This document shows positions 5,012-55,602 of a stretch of DNA of 64,000 nt, one piece after another; positions within the stretch are counted from its first letter, which is position 1, and every line of letters starts with the position of its first letter. The stretch comes from Neoscytalidium dimidiatum. Taxonomy: Eukaryota; Ascomycota; Dothideomycetes; Botryosphaeriales; Botryosphaeriaceae. The notes beneath the pieces are model-generated. The model was not told the origin of the DNA, did not search any database, and was given only the letters and a program-made list of their open reading frames with translations. The stretch spans positions 62,001 through 126,000 of the forward strand of contig CM074701.1 of the NCBI GenBank assembly GCA_037367355.1, written 5' to 3'. A program made the translations under genes and the position numbers.

Positions 5012-5555
5012 GATGGTTGACTGGAAGGAGTCGAATATGCACGTGGCGCTGCTGCCTGCTGAGGGGAAAAACAACACCAACAAGCATGTGTGTCCAACAG
5101 GCCTGTCAAGATTCAAATAGATTTTCGGCAGCTTCAAACCCGCTCTGCATGGCCACATGGGCAAAATCATGAGCGGAATTCCGCCAATGGAACACGTCGG
5201 GGAAGAAAGTTTAAGTTTACCCCGCGCATGCGCGGCGTACTGTCTCGTGGCACTTGCAAACAATATTGTGGCACAGCAAAACTTAAGGCATCATAAATGG
5301 CTCTCCATGAAGGAAGATACTCGACACGTCTCTAGCTTCTATAAATAGCTGCCAGGACGATGCTCAGCATTGCACCGCGTGGTAGCAATTGTGCAACATT
5401 TGCTGAAAATCTCCTGACCCCGCATTCGCACGGTATGCCTCGCCGCTGTGCTGCTTCGCTGTTGTCGCAACAAACACGTCGTGGCGCAGCAGGAGCTAAA
5501 TAAATAAGGCCTGCTGTGCCGCAGAGCAGAGGGAGTCGCAGCCGTGCGATCGTAA
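5012..5555. promoter_or_regulatory. upstream region of the GH39-like gene
   Basis: Promoter side of the minus-strand GH39-like gene. A second, unassigned plus-strand frame starts to its right. No specific element can be named. Confidence 0.3.
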
Positions 5556-15336: not shown

Positions 15337-15367
<31 letters not shown>

Positions 15368-15942: not shown

Positions 15943-16037
15943 GACGCCCGTGATAGTAGAATGGATATTGTGAAAGAATTGGTCTTACTTAAAACAGTAA
16001 TGAGAGCGATGAGTTTAAGTTTCACCCCGAGAGGCAT

Positions 16038-25214: not shown

Positions 25215-27171
25215 TCAAGCATTCTGCTTGGAGTCCGGGCGCACCTCCACCGACTGCGTGGTCGACGAGTCGCCCAGATCCGCGTGCAGCGCGTCCTCGA
25301 ACCTCACCTGAACGTCGTCGCCGAACAGGGGGCCGATCTCCTCGAGGGTGAGACCGGTAGTCTGCGCAAGCGAGTTAGCGATTCCGAATCCACATCCCCG
25401 AAGGCACGCTGCTCATCCGTGCTTACCTCAGGCAGGAGGAACCAGATAGCGATGCAGCACGGCACCGTCAGCGCCACGAAAACCATGTAATACTTCCAGC
25501 CGATCGTGGCGAACGCGGTCGTCGCGGGATACGTGTACGCCAGAGCGGGGCCGAAGAAGCCGATGTAGTTCAGGGTGGCGCCCTTGCTGCGCAGGTGGGT
25601 GGGCCAGATCTCGGCGCCGTAGACGTAGCCGGTGCACTCGATGGTCGACGTGAACCAGACGCCGAAGATGAAGTACATGGCGACGGCGGCGTTGAGGCCC
25701 GGCGCGTAGGTGGTGGCGAGGTAGAACTTCTGCAGCACGCCCTCGATGACGAGCAGGACGACGCAGCCGAAGCCGCCGATGACCAGCATGTTGACGCGGC
25801 CCAGCCGGTCCATCAGGAAGACGTTGACGAAGCAGCCGATCAGCACGCACGCGTCCCACGCCACGCCCAGCCCGAGCTGCATCACCGCGTCGAAGCCGAG
25901 GTTGCCCATGAGGGTGCTGTCAGGCACTGTCAGCTCTTCCCATTTTCTCTTGAAGGAGTTCGGACGATCGGCGGCCCGGGGGGGGGAGGAGGAGAAGATG
26001 GAGGACTCACGCAATCAGGTTCGCAATCACGGTGATGCCGGTGCTCTGGCCCATCGTCCACACCAGCAGCGTGCACACAGCGCGCTTGCGCATGCTCGGC
26101 GTCGTGAAGATGTACCAGTAGCTGCTCGGCAGGCTGCGCTCCGCCGCGATCTGCGCCCGGATCTGGATGAACTCGGCCTTGGCAACCGTCGCGTCCGGGT
26201 CCGCCTGGTCACGGTGCAGGCGCTGGAGGATCGCGCGCGCCTCGTCCTCGCGCCCTTGCTCGATGAGCCAGCGCGGGGATTCGGGAAGCGCGAAGAGCGA
26301 GCCCAGGAAGATGATGGAGAGGCCGGTGAGGACGATGAAGTTGAGGCGCCAGGCGTAGTCCTGGGTAAGGTTGTCAGCAAGATCGTCCTCTCACTGCTCA
26401 TTCCACGGATGGCTGGAGCAGACTGACCTTCTCGACGAAGTAGAACGCGAAACCCAACAGCGCAGACACGATGTATGAGCCAACAACGCACAGGCCTTGC
26501 GAGCCGACCAGCATGCCGCGGTTGTGTGGGGTCGCCAGCTCAGCCGTATATGTTGGTGTGTTGGAGAAGCACATGGCGGCGCCGAAGCCGGAGATGGTGC
26601 GGCCCGCGAGAAACATGGCGATGTTGATGGAGCCGGCTTGCAACGCGCTGGAGAAGATTAAGAGGAGCGCGGCGACACCGTTGGCGGCACGGCGGCCAAA
26701 TCTGTTGGCAATGGGAGCTTGCACTATGACACCGAGGAGAGCACCACCGAAGAAGCTGCGAGGGAATCAGTGGAAGCCCTTTGCTTTCTTGGTTGTATAG
26801 ATGTTGCGAAAGGAGCAGATAAGTTCTTGTAGAATCCTCGGCGAAGCAGAGACATCGGTGCCTCATTCTTGGCCAGAGAATTGCTGTAGCAAAGTGCTAA
26901 AGATGAACTTACCCTCCAACCATGCCATTGGTGCGTTCAATGGCATCAGGAGTTGACAGAAACTTGGCAAGGAAGGTTGGCTGAGCCAATGTGCCGGTCA
27001 GAATGTTGGCAGCATATCCGTAGATAAACCCTCCCAGTCCTGCAAGGGCAATGGTCTGAAGATTATCAGCTTGTAGTTCGAACAAGTCACAGTGTGTAGA
27101 CATACGGCATAGCTCATGGGACTGGTGTGTCCTCGCACAACGGCAGTCTCTGCAGGAACTTCTTTGCCCAT
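25215..27171 (-). CDS. MFS sugar-porter family transporter
   Basis: Six exons: 27171-27106, 27055-26913, 26755-26428, 26360-26011, 25916-25427 and 25361-25215 (1524 nt, 507 residues). The start is the ATG at 27171 (MGKEVPAETAVVRGHTSPMS). Sugar-porter signatures appear in order: RFGRRAA after the second helix, PESPRWLIEQGR in the central loop, DRLGR after a later helix, and PETTGLTLEEI at the end of helix 12. Alternating hydrophobic segments fit 12 membrane helices, so this is a plasma-membrane proton-coupled or facilitative transporter for a sugar or related polyol. The substrate cannot be inferred. All introns have canonical ends (for example a GTATGT donor in intron 1 and CTGAT branch sites). 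Confidence 0.9.
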
Positions 27172-29715: not shown

Positions 29716-31070
29716 CTATCTCGCGTGCGGAGCGCCTGGTCGTCCGTAGTCATCGCTGATGCTGTTGTCCGATACGTTGTCATAAGTGACTGTCACCTCT
29801 TGTACCCTTTGGATAGCCTCGCCGCGACCCTTCTGGTCTCCCAGGATGCTCCTGTCACTATTTCCATCCGAGTGTACAGACGCTTTGCCTGCTTGCGTGG
29901 TATACATGGGATCTGAAGCCTTTTTCGCGGCTCCTGGCATGTAGTCGAGGTTGATGGCGCCGCCCTCTGCCCTGGAGGGAAATCCACCCTTGGATTGGGA
30001 ATGCTTGTAGTAGTTTCCATATCCGGACGAGCTCTGTCCGGTGACACGTTTCCACAGAGGCCGAAGCGCGGGCATGGTGACGCAGACAATCGTTACGGTC
30101 AGCTCCGAGAACGTCCAGCAAACACTATCCGAGCAGGCATCTGATTTGTCAGCATTGGATTCGAGAGGAACTGGGGAGTGACGCGTCTTACAGAGGTAAT
30201 CGGCCGAGTTGTTTAGGGCGTCCAGAGTAGTTGTCCGAACGATACCGCAGATGCCTGCAAATATACCCAATGACAGGGAAACACAGATAGTGATCTTTTC
30301 CTTCTTTCTCATGTTTAATTGCCAGAGAACAAGCCACGGAAACAGGGCGAGGAAGAAATCCATGGCGGCCGACCACACTTCGGTGTCAGAATTAGCAAAT
30401 GCAGTGCTTCTAGTGAGCACATTTCGTGACTTACCGCATGTAAGAGTGGCGATCACGGAGAGCTTCAGCTTAGGGGTTCCCTTCACTGAGGGATCCCAGA
30501 GAGCTTCTACTGGATCCATCTGCGCAAACACTGAGATGCAAAGCAGCAAGCTTACTGCCATCATCGTGATGATCCAGAACCAGAGCACGATGTAATGCCT
30601 TTGATTTTTTGTCAGTGAAATGAGAACAGACTGAGGCGCCGGGAAACCCACCAGGTCTTATTCAAAATGCGAATCAAGAACACAGCAACAGCGCATTTAC
30701 TTGTTCCCATTGCAATTGAAATGACGGACTGGCCAATAAGGAAGGTCTTCATGGCCATGGACCACTCGGACGCTGGCACGATATCCTTCACATGGATTCC
30801 CAGCCCGTGTTGCGCGGAAACAGTGCATATTATGGAGAATGCCAGCATCAAGAACTTCGGACACAGTCAGAATACGTTCGGGCCGAGGGATTAGGAGGCT
30901 TCAGGAAGACATACCCAGGTCACGAAGAGCAGCCAGTCATCCCAGCCAACCTGGCCACCAATCTTGCTTCTTGTGTAGTACCGCAGCGAAATCACAGTCA
31001 AGGCCAGCATCGTCTCGACCCACAAGACGGCCATCAGCTGGGGACCCTTCTGCTGGATTGCTAGCGGCAT
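29716..31070 (-). CDS. PTH11/rhodopsin-like integral membrane protein
   Basis: Five exons: 31070-30915, 30854-30652, 30598-30435, 30377-30192 and 30140-29716 (1134 nt, 377 residues). The start is the ATG at 31070. The first two thirds hold about seven hydrophobic helices. They include the family-typical GWDDWLLF after helix 1-2, a helix rich in small residues (SVISIAMGTSKCAVAVFLIRI), and ELTVTIVCVTMPALRPLWK closing the membrane domain. This is the fungal rhodopsin-like/PTH11-like domain, found in large families of plasma-membrane receptors thought to sense surface or chemical cues. The remaining hydrophilic tail is rich in Ser and Gly and probably cytoplasmic. No CFEM domain precedes helix 1 in this model, although a CTTGCAG acceptor-like site just upstream leaves room for another 5' exon. 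Confidence 0.85.
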
Positions 31071-35608: not shown

Positions 35609-38600
35609 ATGATTTTACGCAGCCTCGGCCTGGTGGCCGGCCTCTTGCTGCCGCACAGTGCTACCGGTGGCATCTTGGGACGCCGCCAGGTTGTCCGCCT
35701 TCATGATCCCGATTGCGTTGTCGAGATTGATGTCGGTGCAACTGTTTACGAGCAGCCCGTGACCGTGAAGACCCCGATCAGCAAGCCCACAACCCTCACT
35801 GTTGGCCCCGGTGCAACAATCACGGTTGGGGATGCTCCGACGTACATCAATACGCTCGTTACTATTACAACTACCATCATTGGCACTCGTACGCACACGT
35901 ACACTATTAATAGATCTGGCTCTGGAATTACTTCAACAACTACTCGTAGGACCCGCCCAGGAAAACCTCGTCCGACTGTATATTCTTCCGCATCTGTAAC
36001 TCTCACAAGCACTTCTTTCGGTCCTTCGTACGGCCCCTCATCGGTTTCACAAAGCTCGGCCTACCCGCCTGGGACTTCCGAGAGTGTGGTACGTACAAGT
36101 GCGCAGTCGTTCCTCGGTGTTCAGAACACTGCAGTTATTACCTGCTACCTACACCTTTGCATGGAGACGGACACTGAAGCTCCCTTTTTGAGATACACTA
36201 ATATCTTTACCACGAAAATTTAAAACAGCAACTCTGGCATGACTGCGTCTGACGAACCTTCTAGTACCCCGCCCCATCTTCAACGATAGCCTACCCTCCA
36301 GGCGGCACTTCCACGTTTAGTAGCTATGGTCCTGGGCAATCGGGAACTCCAAACTACTCGCTCCCCGGGGGTTCTTCAACTTGGAGCGAATATGAGTTGA
36401 GCTCTTCGGCGTACGCCGTTTCTTCATGGAGCTCATCTGGCTATTTTCCTCAGACAAGTGTCATTACACTCCCTTATCTTGGCTCCTCCCAGACGTCTCT
36501 GATAGTCACTTCCGGCTCCGAGTCCTATCCCGTTGTGCTTACTCCCGCAACAATATCTACGTTTACGGGGCCGACAGGGTCTCTAACATACACCGCTGGA
36601 TATGACGGTGTAACGACCACCACCCTCGTGGTCGTCCCGACTGGAACCAATACTGATGCTACTTTAATTCTCGAAACGCCAACGAGGAGCCTCTCGCCGG
36701 CTGACATACTCACGCTCACCTATTTTGGTCCTTCTTCAACAACTGTGGTAGCAACCATTGGCAGCAGCATTCGTACCTTGTTCTTGGTCCCAGCGACTGA
36801 AGCCAACACGTTCCATCCAAGAGCCACGGTCACTATCTCCGCTGGCTACGGTGGGCCGACACCGACCACCTTAACTGTCAAACCTTCGGATGAAATTGGA
36901 ACGGTAATCGTTGAGACCCCAACCGGACCGCTAGGCCCGTCTTATACTGGATCCTACGTTCCTAGCTCATCGGTCATTTATGGTGGCGTAACTACTCGCA
37001 CGGTAGTCGGGTTACCGGGTCCTACCTCCCTGATAGCCACTGGAGGTAGCTCGCTGACGTCGCTTGACCTGGTTCCTGCAACAGTCACTACGTATACAGG
37101 TCCTTTGGCCACATTTACCCTGACTGCTGGATATCCCGGGCAGACTTCGACCACTCTGGTCATCCTGCCTTCTGGGACCGAGCCAGGAACCCCGCTAGTT
37201 CTGTCGCCCACGGTCAACGGTCTCACAACCTACGGCCCGCCCACCTCACCTGGACCCTATGGTAGCACTATTTCGACCTATCCATACATAACAGGAACTG
37301 TCGTTACCACTGTCACTCTTCCAGTCAATGGACAACCATCTACATTCGTCCTGACGCCCACCCAGGTGACATTCACCGGTAGTCTTGCCCCAACTACTTA
37401 CACGATTGGCTACGATGGTCCAACAACAACAACGCTAACAATTCTTAACTCTGGACCAGCCCAGGAGGGCATTATCGTGGTGGAGACCCCCACAGCATAT
37501 CAGAGCTCTTCTCCCGCCGCGACATCCTCTGGGAATCCCGGCACTTTCAACACCTTGCCATATGTTGGCGCAGAGACGACTGCAACCTTGACGGCTACAA
37601 GAAGCGGAACGCTTACGACATTTGTCATCACTCCCGTTGCCACAACATACACGGGAGCTATCGACCCTTACAACACCATCACTGCCGGCTACCCGGGCAC
37701 TACGACAGCTTCGCTAACCATTCTGCCAACGGTACCATCTGGCTTCGCTACAATTCTACTAGAGACCCCGACCGCTTATGCTGCATACTCAACTTCCTCA
37801 GCTTCGTCATTTGCGAGTGGACGCTCCTATGTTGGTGGAACGACAACCATTGATGCAGTCGCTACTCGTAGTGGAACGCTGACGAGGTTGTCCCTGACTC
37901 CAGCGACCACGGTGTTTACCGGTGCCATTGATCCTATAACGACACTGAGGATTGGATACAATGATTATACCACAAATACTGTCACAATTCTCCCAACTGA
38001 TCCTAACGGCCTCGGAACTCTCTTGGTAGAGACACCTACAGCATCGATTACGGCTCCGCCATCATCGTCACCAGCTATCCCGACCAATATTATCACACAA
38101 TACTATGTCGGGGGGACAACGACACGAACCTTGTACCCGATTATAAGTGGCGTGCCACGGACCATGTATGTCATCCCACTGCCTGGTACGGCGGCTACCT
38201 TTGCTGTCGCTCCGACAACATTGACGGCCAATTACCCTGGCTCGACACCGAATACCATTACACTTGTCCCAACTTCGCCCGGAGGTCTCGGAACTGTCTT
38301 GGTTGAGCAGCCGTACCCGTCTTCTGCCAGCATCACGGCGAACCCGTTCACGCGGCCATACATTGGGGCAACCGGTACGCAGGTCATCACGCCTGGTATT
38401 AGTGGTCTCCCAGGGAGCATTGCTATCACAATCACGCCGGCCACAAGTGCTTTCACAGGCGCTGTGAACCCCTCAATCACACTGACAGCTGGCTGGCCTG
38501 CAAGCAGCGTCCAGACAATCACCCTGCTCCCCACTGGCTATGACACGACCGGAACAGTGGCCATTCTGACACCAACGTATTCGCCTCCAGTTTCTGCTAC

Positions 38601-41600
38601 GGCTTCGATCGGGGCTGGTCTGCCCTATGTGGGCGGAACTGCAACATTGACAGTATCTCCCTCCATCAGCGGTCTTCCCGTTGGCTTAGGGGTTACCCTC
38701 TATCCTGTTTCAGTCTACTTCACAGGCCCTGTTGGCCCGATAACTTGGACTGCACCAGTTCTCACACCTGGCGCCAGTCCAACAACAATTACAATTTTGC
38801 CCCAGGGATCCAACTCCTACGGAACAGTTGTGATTGAGACTGGTCTGGCCAGCGCAACCGGTTCTCCAAGTGCAATAAGTGCTGGGCCCATCACCAAGCC
38901 TTACCTAGGCGGCTCCCTGCCTACAATCATTACGCCTTTGATTGGTGGTGTGCCTTCGACGCTTTTTCTCAGCCCCACAACCGGGTCATTCTCTGGTCCG
39001 TATGCAACAAGCGCGCTCACCGTTGGCTATCCTGGTTATACAACATCCACCATCACAATCCTCCCTGCAGGCACGGATACTTTGGGCACATATGTAGTCC
39101 AAGTCCCAACTGGAGGAGTTTCCTCCGCGCCGTCTGTGACCACTGGTCTGAGGACGCAAGCCTATCTAGGAGGCAATGGATTGGTGACTATCACGCCAAT
39201 CATCAGCGGCTCTCCCGTCCCTCTCTACATTACACCGACGCAAGCTACGTTCAGCGGCCCGTACGTCACGTATACCCCGACAATTGGATATGACGGTCCT
39301 ACGATCAACACAATAACTCTGTTGCCTATCGGTTCAGAGACAGCAGGTACGATTGTTGTGGAAACTCCTACCGTTTCTTACGGTAGATCGGCCACTCCCC
39401 AATCTTTGACATCGAGTTACCCCCCCGGAATGACGAGCTTTGGCCCGCTATCTACATCCGCAGCAGGCCTCAACCTCCCATATTTGACAGGAACTTCGAC
39501 CGTCGAGCTGCCAGTGTCCATTAGTGGCTATCAGGTTGTCCTTACCCTCACCCCTGCAACTCAGTCAACTTTCACTGGTGGGATTGATCCGAGCACAACT
39601 TTTACTGTTGGCTATGGCGGCGCTACCCGAACTACTCTTACAATTTTGCCGACAGGGCCGTACGGCAGTGGGACTCTCGTGATTCAGACGCCGCTTGGTA
39701 TGACCACTAGCTTCGCATCGCTTACAACCCCCAGTGGCGGTCTCGTCCCGTATGTGACTGGCAGCGATATCCTGACCATCTCAACGACGGTTGCAGGGAT
39801 CCCGGTCACCTACACCTTGACCCCTGCACCTTACCAGTCCTTTGGAGGTGCCCTTGATCCGAGCACTACATTCACTCTTCCAGGATGGACTGGGACGGCA
39901 CCGACGACTTTCACGATTCTTCCCACCGGTTCTGGTCTATATGGTACCCAAGTAGTTGCAACTCCAGGACCGTATCCTAGTGCATTAACATCTGGAAGCC
40001 TTGTTGCTTCAATAACTTCTGCACGTCCATATTTCGGCGGCACTGCAGCTCAGACAATCACGCCCTCGGTCTCTGGTGTCGGCTTGCCAGGTCTTGTGAT
40101 AACTCCCACTTACGCGCCGTTCACTGGAAGCCTCGATCCTAGCATCACACTCACGATTGGATACACTGGATACGCCACCACGACTTTCACGCTTTTCCCG
40201 ACTGCTAGCGGTGGTTATGGCACTCTCTGCGTTGTAACTCCACTCAACACAGGCTCGATAACGTCTGTGCCGCCTTCTGCTACTGTTGGTGCTGGACGGC
40301 CGTACATTGGGGATACAACAACTGCAGTTATCACGGCAACTGGGCTGAGCGGCCAACCCACATCCCTTTCACTTGTTCCGGCTTCAGGAATTACGACATT
40401 CACAGGCCCTACATTCCCCGTCACATACACGGCAACCTGGACTGGCCTATCAACCAAGACCCTTACCGTCCTCCCTCTCCCCTCTGAGTCATATGCAACC
40501 ATCGTCGTTGAAGTTCCTGCCTACGCCACGTCATCGCCGTTGCTAACTTCGTCCGCCGCGTTCGGTCCTCGCCCCTACATCGGTGATGTGTCAACGCAGA
40601 CGCTGACTGTATCCGTTGGAAATCTGCCCGTGACTACGTTGACCATAACCCCTGCTACTTCCCTGCTGACCAATGTCATTAATCCTACCGTAACATACTC
40701 TGTTCCCTGGACTGGGAGCACGACTAGGACACTTCTTCTGTACCCAACGCTTGGAGAGAATTTCGGAACTTTACTTCTGGAGATTCCGTCGGCCACTTCC
40801 GGTCCCGGGATCTCATCTACTCCATCTGCGACATACTCAGCTCCGTCTGGATGGCCGTACGCTGGGGACACCACAACTGCAACAATCACTGCCGCCATCG
40901 GTGCCACGGGTATACCTACTGGTCTTATTCTGGTACCAGCCACTGCTCCATTCATTTTCCCAATCGACCCTTCCAATACATTTATAGCACCTTATACTGG
41001 AGTGTCAATTAGGACTCTGACATTGTACCCGACTGGCACTCAAACTGCAGGCACATACCTGGTCCAGTATCCTGCAAGCACAACGCCTGCGGGCATCCCT
41101 ACAGGTCGACCGTATGCTGGCGATACCATCACTACCACCATTACTGCGGCAATTGGGTCTACGGGTGTCCCCATTGGCCTAACGTTGGTGCCAGCCACTG
41201 CTTCTTTCACGTACCCGGTCAATTCTTACAACACATTCACCGCGCCTTATACCGGAGCATCAATCAGGACTTTGACGCTGTACCCCACAGGGACTCAGAC
41301 CGCGGGCACTTACCTTGTTCAATATCCGGCATCAGCAATTTCGGGTGTCCCTACTGGCCGACCTTATGCAGGCGACACTACAGTGGCTACCATCACCGCT
41401 ACTTTGGGCGCCACAGGCCTCCCAACCGGCCTTACTCTTACACCGGCTACTGTGTCTTTTACCTATCCTGTTGATCCGTATAACACTTTTACCGCACCAT
41501 ATACAGGAACCTCCATTAGGACTCTGACACTGTGGCCGACCGGGACCGAAACTGCGGGAACTTATCTTGTGCAGTATCCGGCGTCTTCGGCTACTTCATC

Positions 41601-44600
41601 GGGCATCTCCTCGGGCCTCACTGGGCTTCCTACTCTTGGCCGCCCGTACTATGGTGACACTACAACGGGAACAGTGACTGCCTCCACTGGCCCTGGGGCA
41701 GTTCCCACGAACTTTTTCTTAACGCCCACACCGGTTCCATTTTCTGGTCCTCTGGATCCCCTCGTCACCTATACTGCACTTTGGTCAGGTCTCTCCACAA
41801 AGTCCTTGACTGTTTATCCGACCTTAGGCGCCACCTACGCTACTTTGCTGCTCGAGATCCCCGCTATCACTAGTTTACCCTCGGCCAGCTCCACCATCGC
41901 GATTGGCAGACCGTATTATGGTGACACCACGACTGCAATTTTGCCTTCAGCCTCTACAGGAATCTCCGCAGTACCAACAAGCCTTTACCTGGTGCCCACC
42001 ACAACTTTCACTGGCCCGATTGACTCCTCGGTCACTTACACCGCGCCCTGGGATGGCATCTCAACAAAGACGTACACGCTGTATCCCACGGGCGGCGAGA
42101 TTTCCGGCACTCTCCTCTTGGAAACTCCAGCTAGCCTTGCCTCTGCTAGTGTCCCAACCAACTTGGCTTCCATTACGTCTGGTCCGATTGTTAGTAGCTC
42201 GCGTCGACTGTATGTCGGGGACACCACTACTGGCACAATCACGGCACAGTCTGGCGTGAGTGGCGTTCCCACGACGATTCCGCTGGAGCCGTACACTGCC
42301 GGCATTTTCACAGGGCCGTTTGATCCATCGGTCACACTGACCGCACCATACGATGGTACCACTCTGAAGCTGATCACCTTGCTTCCAGAGTCTTCGGGCG
42401 GATACGGCACAGTGGTCGTTGAAACCCCGCGCTTCGCATCTGCAACAGCTACCCCGTCTCCATACCCGTCGTCCATTGGCGGTCCTCGTTCATATGCAGG
42501 CGACACAACTGTCGGCGTCATTACTGCATCGGCTTTCGTTCTAAGCACTCCTCTCGTCATCTCAGTGACTCCTGCTAGTGCCACCTCATCATTTGCGATC
42601 GATCCTATCACGACTTTGACGACCGGCTACCCGGGCCCAAGCATTCGTACTTTGACACTATTCCCCAGCGGTACTCTAAGCTATGGCACCATTGTCCTCG
42701 AGACGCCCAGCTATGCGTCGTCCTCCGGGGTGCCGACGTCATCTGCTGCCCTTGGTATTCGGCCGTATCTTGGTGGCTCAACCGTCGCAACGGTCACAGC
42801 CACTGGTCCTCTTCTGACTGCACCTACTGTTTTGACACTGACTCCGGCGACAAACACATACCTGACGTACGCCATCGATTCTCTCACGACGCTGACAACT
42901 TTCTACTCTGGTACTGCTGTTAGTACTTTGACGTTGCTCCCAACAGGCACGGAGAGTTTAGCTACGTACTTGGTTGAGTCTCCGTCCGGTATTTCCTCTA
43001 CGCCCTATCCATCTGCCTTTACTACACTTGGTAGGCTATATGACGGTGATACGACTGCTGGTACGTTCACGGCAACTCCCGTGGTTGGCGGACAGACTGT
43101 TGGCCCTCCTACTGTCTTGACTCTTTTCCCTGCACCAACCCCTTGGACCGGCCTTATTAATCCGCTTGGTGGTTTCACAACTCCCTACTCTGGTAGCACA
43201 GTCCGGACGCTTACGATTCACCCCACCGGCACCGAGAGCTACGCTACGCTGCTGGTTGAGGTTCCAACCGCCACACCCTCCGCCACTTTGCCTTCTTCCT
43301 CCGCCTATGGCCCCTTGTACGATGGTGGCGACGGAGTTGTTGCAACGTTTACAGCAACGCCCCCTCTCACTGCCCAAGCCGGCAGCCCGCCGACTGTTTT
43401 GACGCTCTACCCAGCACCTACGCCGTGGACTGGCCCTGTGAACTCCTTCGCAGTGTTCACCACCCCGTGGACCGGTATTTCATCCCGAACCCTGACAATT
43501 CACCCCACGGGTACCAATAGCTACGCTACGCTGCTGGTCGAGGTCCCCGGCGCCACCTCAACTCCTCCGGTTCCGACTTCATCATCGCCGCTCGGTCAGC
43601 TGTATGACGGTGGAGATGGCACCATTGCTACTTTCACAGTCATGCCTGGCCCCGGTGGCTTGACCGCTACCACACCTTTGGTCCTGACTCTCACGCCGGC
43701 TACAGTATCCTGGACTGGGCCCGTCAACTCCGCCGCGGCATTGACCACGCCATGGACTGGAATAAGTTCGCGTACACTGATCCTTCATCCGACGGGTACC
43801 GACGTTGCAGCTACACCACTTGTTGAGGTGCCTGGAGCGAGGTCGGCCTCCTCCACACCCTCAGTGAGTCCGGCTCTGGGTGGAAGACCGTACTTGGGAG
43901 ATAGTACGTCAGGCACCATCACTGCCACTCCTGTCACTTCCGTCTTGGGTCCCGTCTTCTCCTCTTTCAACACAATCGTCGGATCCCCAACTGCCCTAAC
44001 TTTAACTCCTGCGACGACCCCGTTCACCGGCGGAGTCAACATCGTGCTGACTTTCACTGCCCCATACCCCGGCCTTTCAACTAAGACGCTCACTCTGTTA
44101 CCGACTGGCTCTGAGACAACAGGCACCCTCCTGATTGAGACGCCTGTGGGAGTTACATCTTCCGGTCTTCCTTCATCGCTGCCTTTCGGTCAGCCTTACG
44201 ATGGCGACTCTACTGTAGCAACAGTAACGGCAACGCCTGGCAACAGCCTTGGTGCTGTTCCAACTGCGCCTATCACGCTCGTGCTTACACCGGCAACCTC
44301 ACGATTTACAGGCTACGTTGATCCGAATACCGTCCTTACTGCGCCGTGGACCGGAACCAGCACCCGGACCTTGACGCTCCACACGACAGGCTCGCAATCA
44401 GCTGGCACCCTGCTCGTCGAGACACCGATTGCCACAGGTACTCCGTCTTCGCTTCCGTATGGGCGGCCTTACGACGGTGATTCCACCCCGGCTACAGTTA
44501 CGGCGACGCCCGGAAATAGCCTTGGTGCAATTCCAACAGCAGCGCCTGTCACGCTCCAACTCACACCCGCTACCTCCCCCTTCACTGGATATGTAGACCC

Positions 44601-47600
44601 TAACACAATCCTCACCGCTCCTTGGACAGGCACTAGCACGCGTACTCTGACACTTCATCCTACTGGATCAAATTCAGCCGGTACATATCTCGTAGAAACA
44701 CCGCTCATCACTGCGACTCCCTCCTCGCTTCCATCAGGCCAGCCTTATGACGGCGATTTTACCCCCACAACGGTCATAGCTACTCTTGGCAACAGCCTTG
44801 GAGGTCTTCCTACGGCGGCGCCTATCACGCTCTCCCTTACGCCTGCTACATCGCCTTTTGCAGGTTATGTAGACCCGAACAGAGTCCTCACTGCGCCATG
44901 GACAGGCACGACTACACGCACGCTCACGCTGCACCCAACTGGCACGGAAACGGCTGGCACGTATCTTGTGGAAACACCGCTCGTCACGGCAGCATCTGTT
45001 CCTGTACCATCAGGCTCACCATCGGCTTCACCATTTGCGGGCCGCCTCTATGACGGTGACACCACCGTTGGCACGCTGACTGCCACCCCGGGCAACAACG
45101 TCGGACCCTTCGCAACTGCTTTGCCCACCACCATCCCGCTCTACCCAGCCCCAACATCCTTCTCCGGCCCCATTGACCCGTCAACCACGTTGTTCTTTCC
45201 CTACTCTGGCGCTACCACACGCACTTTGACGCTACACCCCATCACACCCAGCGGGTTCGGTACCGTCGTTCTCGAGACGCCATACCTCGCCTCCCCAAGT
45301 GTAATTTCGCCTCTGATCGTACCCCGTCCCTACGATGGCGGAGACCGGACGGTCGAGACGATCACCGCCGTCGCAGGCGGCGCGTCCGGGTCCCTCGCCA
45401 GCGCGATCCCAAGCACCTTGGTCATCACGCCCGCCCCCACGTCATTCAGTGGTGCTGTCGATCCCACGTACAGCTTGACGGCGCCATGGACCGGCACTAC
45501 GACGCGGACGCTCACGCTACACCCGCTGAGCGGGCAAACGACTGGCACAGCGTTGATCGAGATCCCGACAGCGGGTGTGAGCGGTTTGCCGACGAGTACG
45601 ACCGCGAGCACACCCACGGGCATCCTCAGCAGCATAAGCAACTACCTCTTCGGGTCGACCACGACAACAACGCCTGCGCTGGTACCAACTGTACCCACTG
45701 AGCTTGGCACCGGTGTGTCTAGCAGTAGTGTTTCTCCAGTGTCTAGCAGCAATGTTTCTCCAGTGTCCAGCGGTAGTGTTTTTTCTGTGTCCAGCGGTAG
45801 TGTTTCCTCTGTACCCAGCGCAAGCCCAGCATTGCCGACAACCGGTCTTCCCACTGGTTCTACGGTGGCATCCCCGAGCGCTTCTTCTCCTACGTCTGGC
45901 CTCCCCAGCGGTCTATCTACCAACCCTGCACTCGTGTCTTCCGTCATCTCGTCCTTGGCGTCGGAGCTGAGCAACCTGCCGAACGTCGAGTCCTCTCTCG
46001 CGAGCTCTCTCTCCTCCGAGATCAGCAGCCTCGCTTCGTACCTTCCGACCACCTCGGGCCAGCCCTCCGGTGTCCCTAGTGTTAGCGTCCCTAGCGGATC
46101 GTCTGCCTCCGTGTCCCCTGAAGTCAGTACCCCTTCAGCGGCCAATGCGCCCACCGGAGTCAGCGCTCCTTCAAGTCCCAGTGTGCCATCAGCGAGCGTG
46201 CCAACCGGAGCCAACGTTCCATCTGCCAGCTTGCCAACCGGAGCCAGCGTTCCATCTGCCAGCTTGTCATCCGGATCCAGCCCGCCGTCCGCTCCCTCGG
46301 GGTCTCTCAGCGGTCCTTCTAGCCTCAGCGCCTCATCTGGTAGCCTTGCACCCTCTGCCCCAACAAATCTCGCTCCCAGCGGCGCATCCAGCAGTGGTCT
46401 TCCATCGAGCGTGCCTTCAGTGAGCTACGTCTCTACTCCCACAGGCTCTTCAACGTCCGCGCCTACCGGTGTTAGTGCATCTCCCAACGTCCTGTCTACT
46501 GGATCTGGCCTTCCATCCAGTCTGTCAGGCTCCAGCGGCTCTGAGACCTCCCTGCCATCTGGAACTCCCTTAGGCTTGCCGAGTCAATCTGCATCTGCCC
46601 CGACCCCAAGTGGTAGCGCATCTGCTCCATCTTCTCTGCCGAGCGGCTCTGCGACTGGCCCCAATGCTTCAGTCCCTTCTGCCAACAGCGTCACACCGTT
46701 GGGATCTTCTTCAGTGCCCGCCAGCGCTTCCCCAGGCCCGTCCGGCGTTTCTTCTGGCTCGGGAGCATTTGGCCCATCCGCATCTGCTCCGATAGGCTCA
46801 GTTCCTTCTGGAAGCGGCTCTGGCGCGCCGAGTGGTCCGTCAGGCTCAGGCCTACCAAGTAGTTCTTCTGGCTCTACTATACCGAGTGGCCTATCAGGCT
46901 CAGGCCTGCCAATTAGTTCTTCTGGCTCCGCCGTGCCGAGTAGTCCGTCAGGCTCAGTTCCTTCTGGAAGCAGCTCTGCCTTGCCAAGTAGTCCGTCAGG
47001 CTCAGGCCTGCCAAGCAGTTCCTTTGGCTCTGCCGTGCCGAGTGGATCCCCAACGGCTCCATCAGCAAGCCTTTCGTCTGGCCCTTCGTCCAGTCCGGGA
47101 ACTAATGGCCCTGCCGCGTCTCTTCCGTCAAGTACTGTACCCTCTGGCACTGGTGTAGGGCTTCCAAGCAGTGCTTCTGGCTCTGGTCCGCCCAGTGGAT
47201 CTTCGCTGGTGCCATCGGCAAACGTTATATCTGGTAGCTCTACTGAACTGTCCCCGTCAACTCCAGCTTCGTCAACTCCAGGGCTTAGCGGTCTTCAGTC
47301 GTCCGAGATAACTTCAAACTCTGGCCTGCCGTCCGGATCCTTGGCTGGACCTTCAGGTAGCTCCGCCAGCCTCCCTACTGACACTAGCCGTCCTTCCTCT
47401 CAAGGCGGGCTCGTTCCTTCCGGGAACTCCAACCTGGGCCCCGGACCGTCCAGCTCAGCACCCTACTCCCAGTCAAGCACGCCTGGTGCGCCCTCTGGTC
47501 CGTCGCTTCCCAGCGGCTCGTCGACGCCTGGGGTCAGCCCCAGTCAGCCTGAAGCAAGCGGATACATCACAACCATCTCCAGAACTTCGGGCAACGCGTT

Positions 47601-50600
47601 CTACACAGCGACGGTCGTTGCCACTCCGACGAGTGGAACAGTTGCAATTACTCAAGTTATCATCAATTACCCCGAGAGCTATTCATCAACTGCAGGCTTC
47701 CCAACTGACTCCGGCGTGGCCACACCATCTCTACCTTCCGGACAATCTCCTGTTCCAGCGGGACCTCTTTCGACTTTCTACCAGACCTCCGGCACGGCTG
47801 GCTACACATCAACTCGTACGCAGTCTCTCAGCAACGGCCCTTACACCGACGTTGTGGTCAATGTGGTGCAAAGTTCCCCTGGACCTCTGAGCTCTACACC
47901 TGGTGCGGAGAGCCTGCCGACCATCACTTCGACGTACTTCACCGGTTCTCTGACTTACACGAATACGGGATTGGCTCTCCTCCCTGGATCCACCGGGTCA
48001 GTTTTGGCTTCTGCGGTCATCATCAATGTTCCTGGAACGTACGGACCCTCGAGCGTCACCACCCCGTCATTGCCAAGTGGTAGTTCTCCGACTCCAGCCG
48101 TCCTTCCAACTATCACGGCAACCTACTTTACAGGCCTGTCGACGTATACGACGACTGCTTTGACGTACTTGACTGGCTCAGTTGGCACGGCTCCCGTCTC
48201 TGCGGTTATTGTCTATCTTCCAGGCAGCCTTGGACCTTCCTCCACTCCATCTCTGCCATCTGGTGGTTCTTCCGTTCCTGAGAATCTTCCAACCTTCACG
48301 AGAACCTACTTGAGCGGGTATTCGACATTTACGACGACTGAATTGACCTACTTGCCTGGCGCTACTGGCAGTGCTCCCGTTTCTGCTGTGATTGTCAATG
48401 TCCCTGGCAGCGTCGAGCCGTCTTCCGTGTCGTCTTTACCTTCTGGTGTCTCCTCTGCTCCCGAAAGCCTCTCAACTATCACGAGTACCTATTCTACCGG
48501 CTACTCAACCTTCACCACGACCCTGGCCCTACCCGGCGCCCCAGGAATCCCCCTCACATCTGTGGTTGTGGTCAATGTCCCTGGAGGCCTGCTGTCATCG
48601 CCGTCCTCTCCTGCTGTCTCATCGCCGTCATTACCGTCCATTGGTTCTTCTACACCCGAGCCTCTAGCAACAATTACGCGAACCTACGCTACTGGGTACT
48701 CGACTTTCACGACAACTGAGGTGACATTCCTTTCCAGTCCATCTGGCATTTCTCCTTCATCTGTAATTGTAGTCAATGTACCTGGAGGCTTCTCATCTTC
48801 GGCTGCACCTGTAGAGAATCTACCTACGATCACGGAGACATACTTCAGCGGCACTAGTGTCTACACAACTACGGCTGTGGCATACTTGCCTGGCTCTACT
48901 GGAACTGCGCCCGTCACTGCGGTGATCGTCAATGTGCCAGGATACAGCTCTTCGCCAATCGCCCCTGCAAACCTCCCTACTATTACTCAGACATACTTTA
49001 CTGGCACAAATATTTTCACGACTACGGCATTGACGTATTTGGGTGGATCGACCGGTACTGCTCCTGTCTCCGCCGTCATAATCAACGTCCCCGGCTACTC
49101 TTCCTCCCCAGCTGTGAGCCTGCCCACGATCACGCAAACGTCTGGCACAGCGGGATTCACCAGCACGATCCCCACCTACTTGTCCGGTCCCCTCGGGTCT
49201 GGACCTGCTACGATAGTGCTCGTCAACGTGCCACAGAGCACCGGCGCCATATTGCCTACTGGAGGCATCCCGACGAACTTGGTCCCCGGCGTATCGATTC
49301 CCGGCAGCCTTTCGACCATTTACACTACCGGTGGCACAGCCGGTTACACGTCGACAACTCTCTGGACCCCGACTAACTCTGCTGGTATTGCTACTGCTGC
49401 GCCATCGTCGGTTGTTCTCATCAATATTCCGCAGAGCTACTCCGCAACTAGCGCTCCGACGGTCACTTATACCCCTGGAAGCGCCAGCCTTCTGACAATT
49501 TCCACAACTGGTGGCACAGCCGGTTACACGTCTACGATCCTCTGGACCCCTACCAATGCTGCTGGCCTTCCTACCGGTACACCATCTTCGGTCGTTGTCG
49601 TTAATGTTCCGCAGAGCTACCCTACAACTAGTGTTCCAACTGTCACTTTCAGCTCTGGAAACGTCAACCTTCAAACAATTTATACTACTAGCGGCATAGC
49701 CGGTTACACTTCGACTATTCTATGGACCCCTACTAACGCTGCTGGCATCCCTACTGCTTCGCCGTCGTTGGTTGTTGTCGTCAATGTTCCGCAGAGCTAC
49801 CCTCCAGTCAGCGTCCCGACGGTCACTTATACCTCTGGAAGCGTCAGCCTCACGACCACTGCTGTTGTCACACCTACTTCCCCTGGTCAACTACCCTACA
49901 CCCAGGTTCAGGTCTACGAACCAACACCAACTACGCTCACGACAACCATCACGTTCGGGGCTGTAGCCTCGACGTTCACGACTGTTGCTACCATTGGCAC
50001 CTCTGTGGTTCCTGAGGTCGTTGTATATGTGCCAACGCTGCTGACCATCTCGCAAACGAGCGGTGCTGTGCCTTTCACCTCCACTGTCTCTACCCTCATC
50101 AATAGTTCGCCGACCGCTTTTGTGATCGTCAATGTGCCTACGTCTTTCGGGCCAATTACTACGACGCAAACTTCTGGGCTTCTTCCATTCACCACAACGT
50201 TCACGACAGCCAACCCAACTGTCAATGGTGGACAACCTTACGCCGAGGTCCTTGTCAACGTGCCAAGCACGCCCAGTCCATTTGCATCTGTCCCTACAAT
50301 AACCCAGACTAGCGGGGCCGTTGCTTTCACGACCACAGTGACCACCATCATCAACGGATCACCGGGCCCAGAAGTAATTGTCAACGTGCCTACGCCATTC
50401 GGACCCGTCACATTGACGCAGACATCCGGCTATGTCCCCTTCACGACCACGTTCGTGACATCGAATCCACTGATCAACACCGGCCAGCCTTACACGGAGG
50501 TTCTGGTCAATGTGCCTTCGCCATTTGGACCCGTCACTTCGACACAGACCTCCGGCTTCCTCCCCTTCACAACTACATTCATCACAGCTAATCCTACCGT

Positions 50601-53600
50601 CAATGGTGGCCAGCCTTATACGGAGGTGCTCGTCAATGTGCCTACCCCATTCGGCTTCACGACAACGCAGACATCCGGTGCTATCCCGTTCACGACGTCG
50701 TTCGTGACCTCTGATCCAGCCATTAACGGTGGTCAGCCGTTCACAGAGGTGCTTGTCAATGTGCCTACGCCTTTTGTTTTCACGACCACGCAAACGTCAG
50801 GATACCTTTCTTTTACGACTACATTCTTGACGGCTAACTCAGCCGTGAACGGCGGTCAACCTTACACAGAAGTTCTTGTTAATGTCCCCACACCATTCGC
50901 TCTGACAACGACACAAACATTAGGATACTTACCATTCACTACAACTTTCCTGACGTCTGGTTCTGCTATCAATGGCGGGCAGCCTTACACGGAAGTGCTA
51001 GTCAATGTACCAACACCGTTTGCGGTGACGGCGACACAGACGTCAGGGTACTTGGCTTTCACCACAACTTTTCTAACATCCAACCCAGCCATCAATGGTG
51101 GACAGCCTTATACCGAAGTACTGGTCAATGTGCCTACACCATTTGGACTTACTTCGACGCGAACCTCTGGCAATCTTCCGGCGTATACCACAACGTTCGT
51201 GACAGTGGATTTAACTGCCAACGGTGGACAGCCATACACGGAGGTTCTGGTGGTCGTACCAACGCCTTTCGGGCCTCTTACTGCCACTCAAACATCAGGG
51301 AATGCACCAGCTTACACGACGACTTTCGTCACGGCTAATCCTGGCGTAAACGGCGGTCAGCCTTATACGGAAGTCTTGGTGGTTCAGCCTACCCCATTTG
51401 GGCCCCTCACCAGGACCACAACCTCGGGACTCTTGCCAGTGTACACAACAACTTTCGTGACACAGGACCCCAATATCAATGGCGGTTCACCGTACACTCA
51501 GGTTCTCGAAGTCGATCCCGTTCCTTTTGGACCCGTTACCAGTACTACAACTTCAGGATACCGGCCTGTTTACACGACAACTGTTCTGACGCAGAACTCT
51601 GCGGTGAATGGCGGCTTACCGTACACTTTGGTTCTAGAAGTGGACCCAACTCCTTACGGGCCTGTCACGACCACCGTCACTTCTGGCGCCTCAAGCTTCG
51701 TCACCACTGTGGTCACTTCCGGTCTGTCGGTCAACGGCGGTTATCCGTACACGGAAGTGGTGTATGTGGTGCCCACTCCCGCCTCGAGCCCCGCAATCCT
51801 GCCAAGCAATCCGGGCGGAAATTCCAACCTTGCCCCTGCAGCAAGTACCCCCGGCTACTTGTTCACCAGTACCCAGTATTCTGGGACAGTTGCCTTCACA
51901 TCCACCATTCCAACCACGTGGACGGATGGAAGTTCGGCGACTGAGGTCCTCATTAATTTACCGACTACCGCCGCCGCCTCGCCAAGCGCCTCAGGAAATG
52001 TGTGCTTGCCTGCTGCGGGAAATAACTCTCCACAGTGTTTAAACTCTCTTCCAAGCATCTGCACGACCCCTGGCGGCGGTTTCTTTGGTGCCATCACTGG
52101 TACCATTGACTATGTCGGATGCTCGGCCGCTCTAGGCGGCATGGGCATAGTACAAGCTGCTGCTTGCTTCGTCGACCAAGGTATCAGCGCAATTGGCAGT
52201 GCATTCACGAATGATGCTGATTTTGTGTCCTGTTTGAACAACAACTTGCCCACCTGTGGCAACTGCTCACCCGGCCTCCCGCCGTCTTGTTCAGCTCTGC
52301 AGTCAGTCTCCGGCAGCCTCGTGGGCAACGCCGCATTATCTACATGCCAGCTGGCACTTGGCCTGTTCAGCAGTACCGGTGCTGCTCCGTGCTTTCTTTC
52401 AAGTCTCACAAGCGGAAACACCTTCTTCTCGTGCTTGACAAACTCCGTTCCCGTCTGCAACAGCAACGGTGCAACACCCACATCCCTCATGGCATCAACA
52501 ACGGCAACCCTCTGTGGAACACCAGTGGCAACTTCATGTGTAACAAGCCTCCCCCCGGCGTGTAATAGCTTGTCCACCAGCGGCGGTCTCGCCAGTGGCC
52601 TGATAGACCCCATCGCTGCTCTTGCTTGCCAGAGTGCCCTGGGAGTGCTAGGATCGGTCAACGCTGCTGCATGTTTCGTGAGCAGTGTTATAAGCAGCTT
52701 CACCCCTCTTGACCTTCTATCTTGCGTCGAGGCCAACACTCAGACCTGTCAGAACTGTCTTCATAACGGTGTCCCTCCATCTTGCGCCGGACTTAGCACC
52801 CTGAGCGTCGGCCCTATCGACCTCACGAATCCTGTCGTCGCCGCCTGCCGAACCGCTCTTGGTCTGTTTGCGCAGGTTAACGCCGCAAGCTGTTTTGTCT
52901 CGAATACCCTCAGTCTGGGCGGCTCTAGCCTGCTGAACTGCATCGGTTCAAATGTTCCTTCGTGCTCAGGTGGCACCACTTCCGCTCCTGCGCCCGTCTT
53001 GAGCACGATCACGATCCCTTCCGGCGTAAGCAGCCACACAACGGTGGGACCGATGCCTTTCGCCAGCCCTATCTCCAACTTCAACCCCCCGTCCGGTCCT
53101 TCGACATCCCACGTTCTCGCGGGTAGTGCAACCTCTGCGGTGACGCTGTCAACTAGCTACCAGACAGGAGGTGCATTGGTAAGATCCCTTTGTAACCTTC
53201 TCCACAAAAGCGCAGAGCTAACGTGACGTGATTACCTTCCAGGCATATACCAGCACGATCACGAGTACCTTTTTTCCGATCGGATTCCCGCCGCAACCAC
53301 CGGTAACGACAACGTACGTTGTCGTTAATTACCCTCAAGCCCTCGTCAACCCCGGCGGCAATAGCAATCTCGCACGGACATACAGCACATTTACCCTGAC
53401 ATCAGGCGCAATCGCCTACACGAGCACATTGTTTACGCACCCGCCTGGCGCCGCGCTTACTGGAACCTATGTCGTTATCAACGTGCCGACTCCTACCTAT
53501 TCGACATACACGCAGACATCAGGTGCGGTGGCATTCACAAGTACTTTGTACACAGATCCTCCTGGACTGGCCCCACCTGGAACGTACGTCGTTGTCAATG

Positions 53601-55602
53601 TACCGACTCCAACGTATCCGACGATAACCCAAACTTCGGGTGCTGTGGCATACACTAGCACGCTCTACACTGACCCACCTGGAATTGCTGGCCCTGGGAC
53701 CTATGTAGTTGTGAACGTCCCTGCACCCACGTATCCAACAATAACTCAAACATCCGGCCCAGTAGCGTTTGTGACCACATTATACACCGATCCTCCGGGA
53801 ACTGCTGGCCCCGGCACCTATGTCGTCGTTAATGTGCCAACTCCGACTTATCCGACAATCACGGTGGCCGCTCCTTCAGCCTACACCTCCACTATTGCTA
53901 CACATCCTGCTGGGGCTCTTTCAAGTGGCACGTATGTGGTTGTTGGTACACCTTATCCCACCATTACGCAGACAGGAGGGCTCAGTGAATACACCTCTAC
54001 CGTCCTGACTTCTCCCGTGGGCGCTCCCGCTGGAACTTATGTCGTCATCAACCATACTCCCTTGCATACTATTACCGAGTTCTCTGGAGTTTCATCCTTT
54101 ACGACAACAGCGTACACGGACCCTGCAGGCACTCTCCCACCAGCCACGTATGTCATCATCAATCATCCAGCTCTGCCCACAGTTACAATTACGAGCGGCA
54201 ATGTTTTGTATACGACGACGGGAGCGAGCACGGTTACGGTAGTTCAACCAACCCCGGCCCTGACAATCACTCGTACCTCTGGAAGCGCAACGATCCTCTC
54301 TACCTCCGTAACCACAGCCGGCGGAACAAGCAGCAACGTGGCTGTGATCATAGTCCCAACACAGGCCCCGTTCAAAGTCGCTGTCACTGACTTCTCTAAC
54401 AACTTCTTCGGATACCTGGACGTGTCAGACACGCCGATCAGCGGCGAAACAGCGCATCAGTGCGGCTTCACACCCACATTTTCGAGCGCCTCCCTCTTCT
54501 ACATCGACCCCATATCGACTAGGCTCGTCTGTTCTTCAGGCGCCGGAACGAGCACCCCTCTTCACTCCTGCCAAAAGCACGGCCAGCGTGACTCGCCGTT
54601 CCTCTTCGACCTCCCCGCAGCATCGGGCAACGACAACATCGACACGACCTTCTGGGACGACAATACGCTACACGTCACGAACCCAGTGACGACTCAGTTC
54701 CTCGCGTCGATGTGCAATGGCCTTCTCTACCTCACTGGCGGCGTACCCACCGGTTGCCATCAAGTTGTGCTATCGCCCTGCCGTTCGGCCCTCTCCTTCA
54801 CCACGAGAACAATCACGTCGGGCACGGGGCTGCCGTACACAACGACCAGCGCTCCCGCGGGCTCGGCCGTCACAGGCACCGGCGTGATCGAGGTCGTGGT
54901 GCCGTCTTCCTGCGCATCTCCGGGCATCGAGTACACAAACCGGCCGAACCCGGCCACGGCTGGCTCCACAACGACCGACGTCTATTACCACAACTTCCTG
55001 CCGGCCGTCTACAACAACCCCAGCGGCACCTTCAGCACCATCAACTTCCAGGGCGTGACGGACAACATTGCGTTAGCCATTCCCTCGAATCCGGGCTATG
55101 GCACCGTTTACAATTCGGGCACGCATAATCTGGCGCAGACAGCGTTGATCTTCCGCGGCTAGTAAGTTTCCCCCTCTCCCTCTCTTCTTCCGCCTTCGGC
55201 TCGATAAAAATGATGAGGCGAAAAGAACAAAAAAAAATAAAAAAGGGAAGACCAAAAGCTGACATGACTGTTCCTCGCAGCTTCTACGCCTCCGTCGGCG
55301 GCTCGTGGACCTTCCAGATCTCTCAGCCCGACGACATCATGTACCTCTGGATAGGCCAGAAGGCGGTGTCGGGCTGGACCAACACAAACTACGACATGGT
55401 CGCCGCGCTGAACGGAGCCACGAAAACTTTCACCATCACGCTGGCCGCGGGCTCGTTGACGCCCATCCGCATGGTGTACGCCGATGGCGGCGGCGCCGTC
55501 AGCTTCTACCTGCAGACGACCGATCCGAACGGCGTCGTGCGCGGAAGCACGGCCGGCCTGTTCAGGCGGCCTGAATGCGGTCCCGATGTTGGGTGGACAT
55601 GA
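35609..55602 (+). CDS. giant repeat-rich GLEYA-type cell-surface adhesin, about 6,544 aa
   Basis: Four exons: 35609-36088, 36265-53178, 53243-55161 and 55281-55602 (19,635 nt, 6,544 residues), with GTACGT, GTAAGA and GTAAGT donors. The frame is continuous through a 16.9 kb exon. The signal peptide is within MILRSLGLVAGLLLPHSATG. Residues about 220-3265 are about 33 diverged Thr-rich repeats of about 90 residues. A Ser/Pro/Gly linker (about 3270-3925) follows, then a second repeat family (about 3927-5399), a fourfold cysteine-rich module (about 5400-5730), more of the second family (about 5840-6170), an unassigned globular domain (about 6170-6313) and a GLEYA-like C-terminal domain (about 6357-6544, starting GIEYTNRP). 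GLEYA domains are calcium-dependent lectin-like ligand binders of fungal adhesins. I see no C-terminal GPI signal, so wall attachment is unclear. The Thr/Ser content implies heavy O-mannosylation. It is probably an extended stalk presenting a binding tip. Confidence 0.88.
36445..45590 (+). repeat. array of about 33 Thr-rich ~90-residue repeats in the adhesin
   Basis: Each unit reads roughly: PYxGxTT-x-TIT, then LTLTPAT-x-FTGPIDP, then T-x-APYTG-x-STRTLTL-x-PTG, and ends LLVETP or similar. I counted 33 unit ends by the xVExP signature. Most units are strongly diverged. Two subsets are close copies: about 40860-41590 (three units ending YLVQYPAS) and about 44180-45000 (three units with TPGNSLG or TLGNSLG). 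Confidence 0.85.
45721..45815 (+). repeat. Ser/Val minisatellite in the adhesin linker
   Basis: About three to four copies of a 30-33 nt unit coding for (S/V)SSxSVSPV-like peptides at the start of the low-complexity linker. Copies are near identical, suggesting length instability. Confidence 0.75.
46780..47045 (+). repeat. imperfect tandem repeat coding SGLPSSSSGSxxPS
   Basis: Repeated units containing GGCTCAGGCCTGCCAAG- and TCTTCTGGCTCT-like strings, encoding Ser/Gly/Pro peptides such as GSGLPSSSSGS. A related 42-nt duplication (LPTGASVPSAS-type) lies at about 46195-46270. Confidence 0.7.
47566..51980 (+). repeat. second adhesin repeat family, 35-60 residues per unit
   Basis: Units read TI(T/S)QTSG-x-xxFTTT, then a variable loop, then a strand ending (E/A)VLVNVP. 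Early units carry a longer loop (TYLPGSTGTAPVSAVI). Later units (from about 50150) are shorter and more uniform, with NGGQPYTEVLVNVPTPF. About 30 units in all. Pairs of Thr/Val-rich strands joined by loops suggest short beta-hairpin or Ig-like modules. Confidence 0.8.
51990..52980 (+). repeat. fourfold cysteine-rich module in the adhesin
   Basis: Four tandem copies of about 80 residues, each with the pattern (L/V)PxxC, then x(A/G)CxxALG, then AAxCFVS or similar, then xxSCxxxNxPxC. About six cysteines occur per copy if the linking CxxC-like cysteines are counted. It lies between two blocks of the Thr-rich repeats, just before intron 2 of the gene. I recognise no named domain. Confidence 0.75.
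53370..54350 (+). repeat. third block of adhesin repeats (TYVVVNVPTP type)
   Basis: Nine units of about 30-40 residues: TITQTSGAVAYTSTLYTDPPG followed by GTYVVVNVPTPTY. The first four are nearly identical and later ones diverge. They clearly belong to the same family as the block before the cysteine-rich module. Confidence 0.8.

Follow-up and report, generated by a model that had tools for sequence, protein, structure and literature searches.

The region from 35609 to 55602 (+) of the window (the whole 64,000-nucleotide stretch of DNA that was analysed, C7:62001-126000 of a genome of 43.76 Mb in 40 contigs) is confirmed, as read from the genomic sequence, to be a single four-exon gene, having a CDS of 19,635 nt and encoding a predicted protein of 6,544 residues (653 kDa before modification). 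This protein is probably a giant secreted cell-wall adhesin, in which an N-terminal domain (N-domain) would be held in the wall, the repeats would form a stalk and a GLEYA domain would be at the tip. From the modules described below we infer wall anchoring by the N-domain, an extended stalk, calcium and sugar binding, and adhesion.

Structure of the gene

The exons and introns of the gene are as follows.
35609..36088 (+), exon 1, aa 1-160, predicted secretion signal and N-domain
36089..36264 (+), intron 1, 176 nt, GTACGT...AG; the exon 1 frame runs into a stop here
36265..53178 (+), exon 2, 16,914 nt, 5,638 stop-free codons, aa 161-5798
53179..53242 (+), intron 2, 64 nt, GTAAGA, located within a B unit
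53243..55161 (+), exon 3
55162..55280 (+), intron 3, 119 nt, GTAAGT, interrupts the GLEYA domain
55281..55602 (+), exon 4, remainder of GLEYA (core to 55524), stop codon

The gene starts with an ATG at 35609, and the terminal stop codon (55600-55602) is the only one in the CDS. The three introns are all of the GT-AG type, and each has a CTRAC branch-like motif, which starts 16, 25 or 22 nt before the 3' end. Exon 2 has no in-frame stop, whereas the other five frames have 193, 141, 174, 156 and 472 stops, and a chance origin of this open frame is therefore ruled out.

The joins between the exons are spanned by recognizable domains. When exons 3 and 4 are spliced, the GLEYA score increases from 91.1 bits (exon 4 alone) to 103.4 bits. 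At the exon 2-exon 3 join, the B repeat across intron 2 scores 10.6 bits when spliced, as compared with 4.6 and -1.3 bits for its halves, which lends modest support to this join. Exon 1 is tied to exon 2 by a relative on contig C5, in which the N-domain, A units, linker, Cys module and B unit are found in the same order. It is very unlikely that two or more adjacent genes have been misjoined here, with exon 1, exon 2 and exons 3-4 being on separate transcripts. Such an explanation would fit with the low score of the B unit across intron 2 and with a gene model that is derived from sequence alone, but it is contradicted by the gain in GLEYA coverage and score on joining exons 3 and 4, by the B units that flank intron 2, one of which spans it, by the module order kept in the C5 relative and by the canonical introns. 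The initial annotation had proposed one gene of about 20 kb for 6,544 residues, and this is borne out, with the exons being exact to the base, exon 2 being free of stops and domains spanning the joins.

In the gene, no exact 25-mer occurs twice (ten 20-mers do), the best identity of any ungapped 200-bp window to another place is 79.5%, and the window is free of N bases; it is therefore unlikely that the assembly has been collapsed or falsely expanded across the gene.

Modules of the predicted protein

The modules are arranged in the order predicted secretion signal, N-domain, 33 A units, Ser/Pro/Gly-rich linker, 29 B units, a Cys module of four units, 9 B units, orphan domain and GLEYA domain.
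aa ~29-110 in exon 1 (+), N-domain, common to three other loci (identity 59, 44 and 44%)
36442..45567 (+), A array, 33 units, aa 220-3261, core of 78 positions, spacing 80-108 aa
45568..47559 (+), Ser/Pro/Gly-rich linker, 664 aa, aa 3262-3925, 34% Ser
47560..51969 (+), first B array, aa 3926-5395, made of 29 units (~40 aa each) and linkers
52003..52989 (+), Cys module, aa 5407-5735, with four units and 26 of the 36 Cys of the protein
53143..54358 (+), second B array, in which the B profile recognizes 9 units (aa 5787-6130), with one more seen by eye as far as aa 6170
54359..54898 (+), orphan domain, aa 6171-6350, six Cys
54899..55161 (+), first part of the GLEYA region, with the Pfam core starting near 55142

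Ser and Thr together account for 32% of the residues, and there are 94 Lys and Arg in all, with one stretch of more than 800 residues having neither. A hydrophobic run at aa ~1-23, judged by eye, agrees with the signal-peptide exon of the earlier annotation and is followed by LGRRQ, a possible Kex2-type site, also judged by eye. Several repeat families and a cysteine-rich module had likewise been described, and these are now resolved as 33 A and 38 B units and the four-unit Cys module; the A profile derives from all 33 A units and the B profile from 35 B units, so that these units match their profiles by construction. In the second B array the first unit (across intron 2) and the last unit are weak (7.7 and 3.1 bits).

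The AlphaFold2 model of a stretch of two A units is all-beta, with six strands per unit (pLDDT 86.4, pTM 0.53), and it has no significant match when compared with the PDB. The Cys module is predicted to be helical with low confidence (pLDDT 62) and has only a chance-level match in Pfam (E 3.2). Exon 1 matches no Pfam family at E <= 0.1. In the stretch 54362-54916, covering the orphan domain, no Pfam family is found at E <= 10, and a genome search with this domain returns just one place at E <= 0.001.

Similarity to the Candida_ALS repeat (E <= 1) is seen in 12 of the 33 A units (best E 2.7e-5), where it is located in the second half of the unit, and in five of 35 B units. In the genome search with this profile, 13 of the 15 places at E <= 10 fall in the open frame of the giant gene, and one place is over the cut-off (26.8 bits); Pfam scans of protein pieces give 19.7 and 15.5 bits, below the cut-off of 25.

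None of the 47 Asn of the A array (3,042 residues) is part of an NxS/T sequon, when compared with a mean of 13.3 sequons in shuffled sequences, although the units share positions and are not independent. This absence may reflect the shared repeat positions or avoidance of N-glycosylation. Beta-aggregation-like runs number 30 in the A array (shuffled mean 24.3, maximum 36), 11 in the first B array (shuffled 12.5) and 9 in the second B array (shuffled 3.4, maximum 8). Amyloid-type clustering thus has little support, since these runs exceed the shuffled range in the second B array only.

According to the proposed mechanism, the secretion signal would export the chain, and the 33 A and 38 B beta-rich modules, together with the O-glycosylatable Ser/Pro/Gly-rich linker, would form a long stalk. 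A beta-sandwich is about 4 nm long, and from this value the A array alone is estimated to span more than 100 nm. The GLEYA domain, at the far end, would bind sugar on another cell, the host or a surface, with calcium.

The GLEYA domain and its putative calcium site

The GLEYA region covers aa 6351-6544, with the Pfam core being at aa 6432-6519 of 6544, and is therefore C-terminal. For the spliced piece, the match with PF10528 covers profile positions 2-91, as compared with 9-91 for exon 4 alone, and its score of 103.4 bits is over the cut-off of 26.2 bits, so that the earlier description as a C-terminal GLEYA-like domain was too cautious.

A profile made from the two GLEYA domains of this genome reaches lectin domains in the PDB, being those of Cea1 (E 7e-5), Flo1 (E 0.0017) and Epa1 (E 0.002), and these best-matching solved proteins are adhesion lectins. 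The spliced GLEYA piece alone reaches Cea1 at E 0.0028, and exon 4 alone reaches no adhesin at E <= 1. In the sequence alignments to Flo1 and Cea1, Asp6455-Asp6456 fall on the Asp pair of these proteins, and Asp6506 occupies the place of their Asn. The calcium ligands of Flo1/Flo5 are D160, D161 and N224, plus V226 and W228 (in excerpts of PMC6308950); the aligned residues are taken as these ligands from the N-x-V-x-W spacing, not from a structure. Of the three side chains named, this putative calcium site keeps two, and the third is replaced conservatively. It is plausible that the GLEYA domain binds sugar and calcium, and the change of Asn into Asp means that the binding of either may differ from that in Flo1. 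The genome search found just one further GLEYA domain (C5:3124381-3124653, 66.6 bits), which belongs to a short gene and has Asp-Asn at the position of the Asp pair and Asn at the third calcium-ligand position.

A hydrophobic GPI-type C-terminal tail is not found by hydropathy analysis, the best 19-residue value among the last 20 windows being -0.04.

Relatives sharing the N-domain

Three different queries in the genome search return the same four N-domain loci at E <= 0.01.
window 35609-55602 (+), the giant gene, intact, 6,544 aa
C5:~2796929-2801272, shorter relative with an internal stop
C3:660673-670080 (-), unbroken frame of 3,136 aa
C11:~2544688 (~2.545 Mb) (+), frame of 1,086 aa

The C5 relative has the N-domain, A units, a Ser/Thr-rich linker, the Cys module and one B unit, in the order seen in the giant protein. 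Two of its A units are clear (43.5 and 58.4 bits), one is partial (11.9 bits) and one is doubtful (4.9 bits, with shuffled sequences reaching 4.3 bits); the genome-wide A-repeat search with a single protein piece did not recover them. Its B unit scores 20.1 bits, and its Cys module is 41% identical to that of the giant protein (E 4e-54) and has an in-frame TGA within it. The C5 relative is apparently decayed, which means that frames can be lost in the N-domain family, whereas the frame of the giant gene is intact. In the C3 relative, the N-domain is followed by low-complexity Ser/Pro/Leu-rich sequence, and this relative is a second giant protein, one that is probably secreted. The body of the C11 relative is Ser/Thr-rich by eye. 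Profile searches find no A or B units in the C3 and C11 relatives, and the genome search finds no GLEYA domain in any of the three, so that the N-domain is the sole part found at all four loci.

The N-domain, being present at four loci in otherwise different large secreted proteins, would in the proposed mechanism hold the chain in or on the wall. This anchoring role is a guess, since the N-domain has no known relative and one of the four loci is broken. For adhesins with a C-terminal GLEYA domain, the N-domain is a candidate, open to testing, for a means of wall attachment that needs no GPI anchor.

A less probable explanation is that the protein is a structural or mucin-like wall protein, in which the GLEYA domain would bind the glycans of its own wall and retain the protein there, with the repeats being a coat or spacer. 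The lack of a GPI-type tail is in agreement with this, as is the C-terminal place of the domain, which for such domains has been interpreted as pointing to a different mode of attachment to the wall (in excerpts of PMC6308950), and also the C3 relative, where the N-domain is combined with low-complexity sequence and the genome search finds no GLEYA domain. However, the solved proteins that are best matched by the GLEYA profile are adhesion lectins, and the C5 relative, in which the N-domain, A units and Cys module are not accompanied by a GLEYA domain, would need another part for its retention in the wall. Adhesion by a stalked GLEYA tip is the preferred reading.

A wider proposal can be made only tentatively, as it may well not hold: these loci may represent a distinct class of very large surface proteins of filamentous fungi, in which the unnamed N-domain attaches differing stalks and tips to the wall. 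The longest member would be a rod of 71 modules, largely made from a beta module of so far unsolved fold, with repeats that are kept as protein and have diverged as DNA, so that the gene is huge and repetitive yet stable.

Evolution of the repeats

The codon comparisons include all 33 A units and 32 B-type units, being 14 of group B (the main 42-aa run), 11 of group C (the units before it) and 7 of group E (the units in exon 3); the rest of the 38 B units are short or irregular. For adjacent units, the pooled pS/pN values are 0.749/0.358 (A, 32 pairs), 0.745/0.204 (B, 13 pairs), 0.648/0.225 (C, 10 pairs) and 0.779/0.232 (E, 6 pairs), and in the pair A29-A30 87% of the residues are kept at a pS of 0.77. 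The pS between most neighbouring repeats is similar to that between the paralogous N-domains (0.69-0.75). Where residues agree, the codon agreement is near that of independent draws from the same pool or slightly above it: the same-codon frequency of neighbours is 0.331 versus 0.294 for independent draws in A (z 2.9), 0.375 versus 0.343 in B (z 1.3), 0.417 versus 0.329 in C (z 2.9; 0.429 versus 0.323 two units apart) and 0.313 versus 0.306 in E (z 0.2). Together with the pS/pN values, this means that most synonymous sites have come close to saturation, whereas the protein sequence of the repeats is maintained. The initial annotation had taken the unbroken frame to imply selection; selection on the protein is indeed indicated by the low pN against a near-saturated pS, but the unbroken frame alone is no proof of it.

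The conservation at the protein level, the near-saturation of synonymous sites and the lack of recurring 25-mers argue against a young, slippage-prone array. It is accordingly quite unlikely that this is an ordinary variable repeat gene of the FLO/ALS type, of which a recent expansion has generated an unusually long allele. Such a gene would also be repeat-rich and Ser/Thr-rich, would agree with the Candida_ALS signal in the A units and at the one genome place over the cut-off, and would account for the younger neighbour pairs (pS 0.36 for C2-C3, 0.43 for C9-C10, 0.47 for B4-B5 and 0.51 for C10-C11) and for the excess of shared codons in A and C neighbours. Against it are the pooled pS of adjacent units in A, B and E (0.75, 0.745 and 0.78), the near-independent codon choice in B and E, and the sequence itself, in which the 200-bp identity is at most 79.5% when ungapped. 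The FLO genes of yeast (FLO1) have tandem repeats that slip and recombine (in excerpts of PMC3537727). The giant gene looks like the opposite, encoding an old modular protein in which the amino acid sequences of the repeats are conserved and their codons have diverged widely, and if strains share the number of modules, it is a test case for the genome upkeep of a repetitive gene of 20 kb.

Repeat-induced point mutation (RIP) was considered as a cause of the synonymous divergence and is not supported. The indices of the gene are 1.02 (TA/AT) and 0.99 ((CA+TG)/(AC+GT)), as compared with 0.57-0.75 and 1.18-1.30 for the flanks, and these values lie on the RIP side of the usual thresholds. When the same protein is back-translated using the codon frequencies of eight open-frame fragments from the neighbourhood, the indices are more extreme (1.21 and 0.81), and the RIP-side values are thus explained by the amino-acid make-up. 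In addition, T is rarer before A at fourfold sites, with an odds ratio of 0.51 in the gene and 0.61 in the eight fragments.

Compared with the eight neighbouring fragments, the giant gene and its C3 and C11 relatives have a much weaker C bias at fourfold sites, with T/(C+T), by next base, being 0.37-0.56 in the giant gene and relatives and 0.21-0.36 in the fragments. The codon usage of these three genes is relaxed.

Comparison with known adhesins

Linder and Gustafsson reportedly described fission-yeast flocculins with a C-terminal GLEYA domain in 2008. The flocculins of S. pombe have a signal peptide, beta-sheet repeats, a C-terminal GLEYA domain and no GPI signal (in excerpts of PMC13147542 and PMC6308950); a figure legend in the fission-yeast flocculin literature includes Candida_ALS repeats in the domains that are depicted together with GLEYA. 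The giant protein shares with them the C-terminal GLEYA domain, the tandem repeats (33 A and 38 B units, with the beta model covering two A units), and the absence of a GPI-type tail by hydropathy; a hydrophobic run that may be a signal peptide is seen by eye. It is set apart, when compared by description, by its 6,544 residues, its 71 repeat units of two kinds, its Cys module, its orphan domain and its family N-domain. Since beta repeats and a C-terminal GLEYA domain without GPI have already been described in fission yeast, the predicted adhesin is of a known kind, and it is its size and module set that are unusual. What is new is the conservation of the repeats as protein when compared with their codon divergence, the N-domain at four loci and the A-repeat model without a significant PDB match.

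The Flo and Epa proteins have their PA14-GLEYA domain at the N-terminus and a GPI anchor at the other end (in excerpts of PMC8621652). The Flo1/Flo5 and Epa/Cea1 lectins share with the giant protein the GLEYA domain, by profile, and the Asp pair of the calcium site, and they differ from it by the N-terminal place of the domain, the GPI anchor and the calcium-site Asn, which is Asp in the giant protein. When the Flo family is defined as in these excerpts of PMC8621652, the giant protein falls outside it: its GLEYA domain is C-terminal, its exon 1 has no Pfam family at the cut-off given above, and hydropathy shows no C-terminal GPI signal. Flocculin (PF00624) and Flocculin_t3 (PF13928) are absent at E <= 10 in four exon 2 pieces, at E <= 0.1 in exon 3 and at E <= 1 in the 33 A and 35 B units taken singly, where it should be considered that the HMMER filters discard most matches above E 0.1. 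The Candida ALS tandem repeat (PF05792) resembles the second half of the A units, but the 33 positions of the profile amount to less than half of an A unit, and the protein-scan scores are under the cut-off, which one place in the genome search passes.

As a working analogy, the giant bacterial rod adhesins, such as MpAFP, also have a long tandem beta-sandwich extender, which keeps a binding domain far from the cell. The repeats of MpAFP, about 120 in number, are identical and are stabilised by calcium (in excerpts of PMC4083281), whereas the repeats of the giant protein are unlike one another, and no homology is shown. GLEYA proteins are present in filamentous fungi (in excerpts of PMC3828140 and PMC9026816). 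The initial annotation called such a protein exceptional among fungal adhesins; searches with the giant protein gave no match in a protein database whose fungal content is of unspecified size. In the literature, mostly titles and abstracts with subscription journals outside the scope, no C-terminal-GLEYA protein of such size was found, which does not prove its absence.

Genomic neighbourhood

Between 3177 and 32521 of the window, three of the 10 neighbouring frames scanned have no Pfam match, and the Pfam matches include the following.
3177-5290 (-), GH39, in two pieces
14594-15988 (-), alpha/beta hydrolase
16947-18131 (-), AAA_16
23725-24786 (+), Transferase family
25307-26014 (-), sugar transporter
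29719-30657 (-), fungal rhodopsin

Elsewhere in the genome, TTAGGG arrays are seen at C3:4262850, C4:4195774 and C9:3428349, with 47 forward and 0 reverse matches; the array of C3 is located about 18 kb short of the end of this contig (4,280,880).
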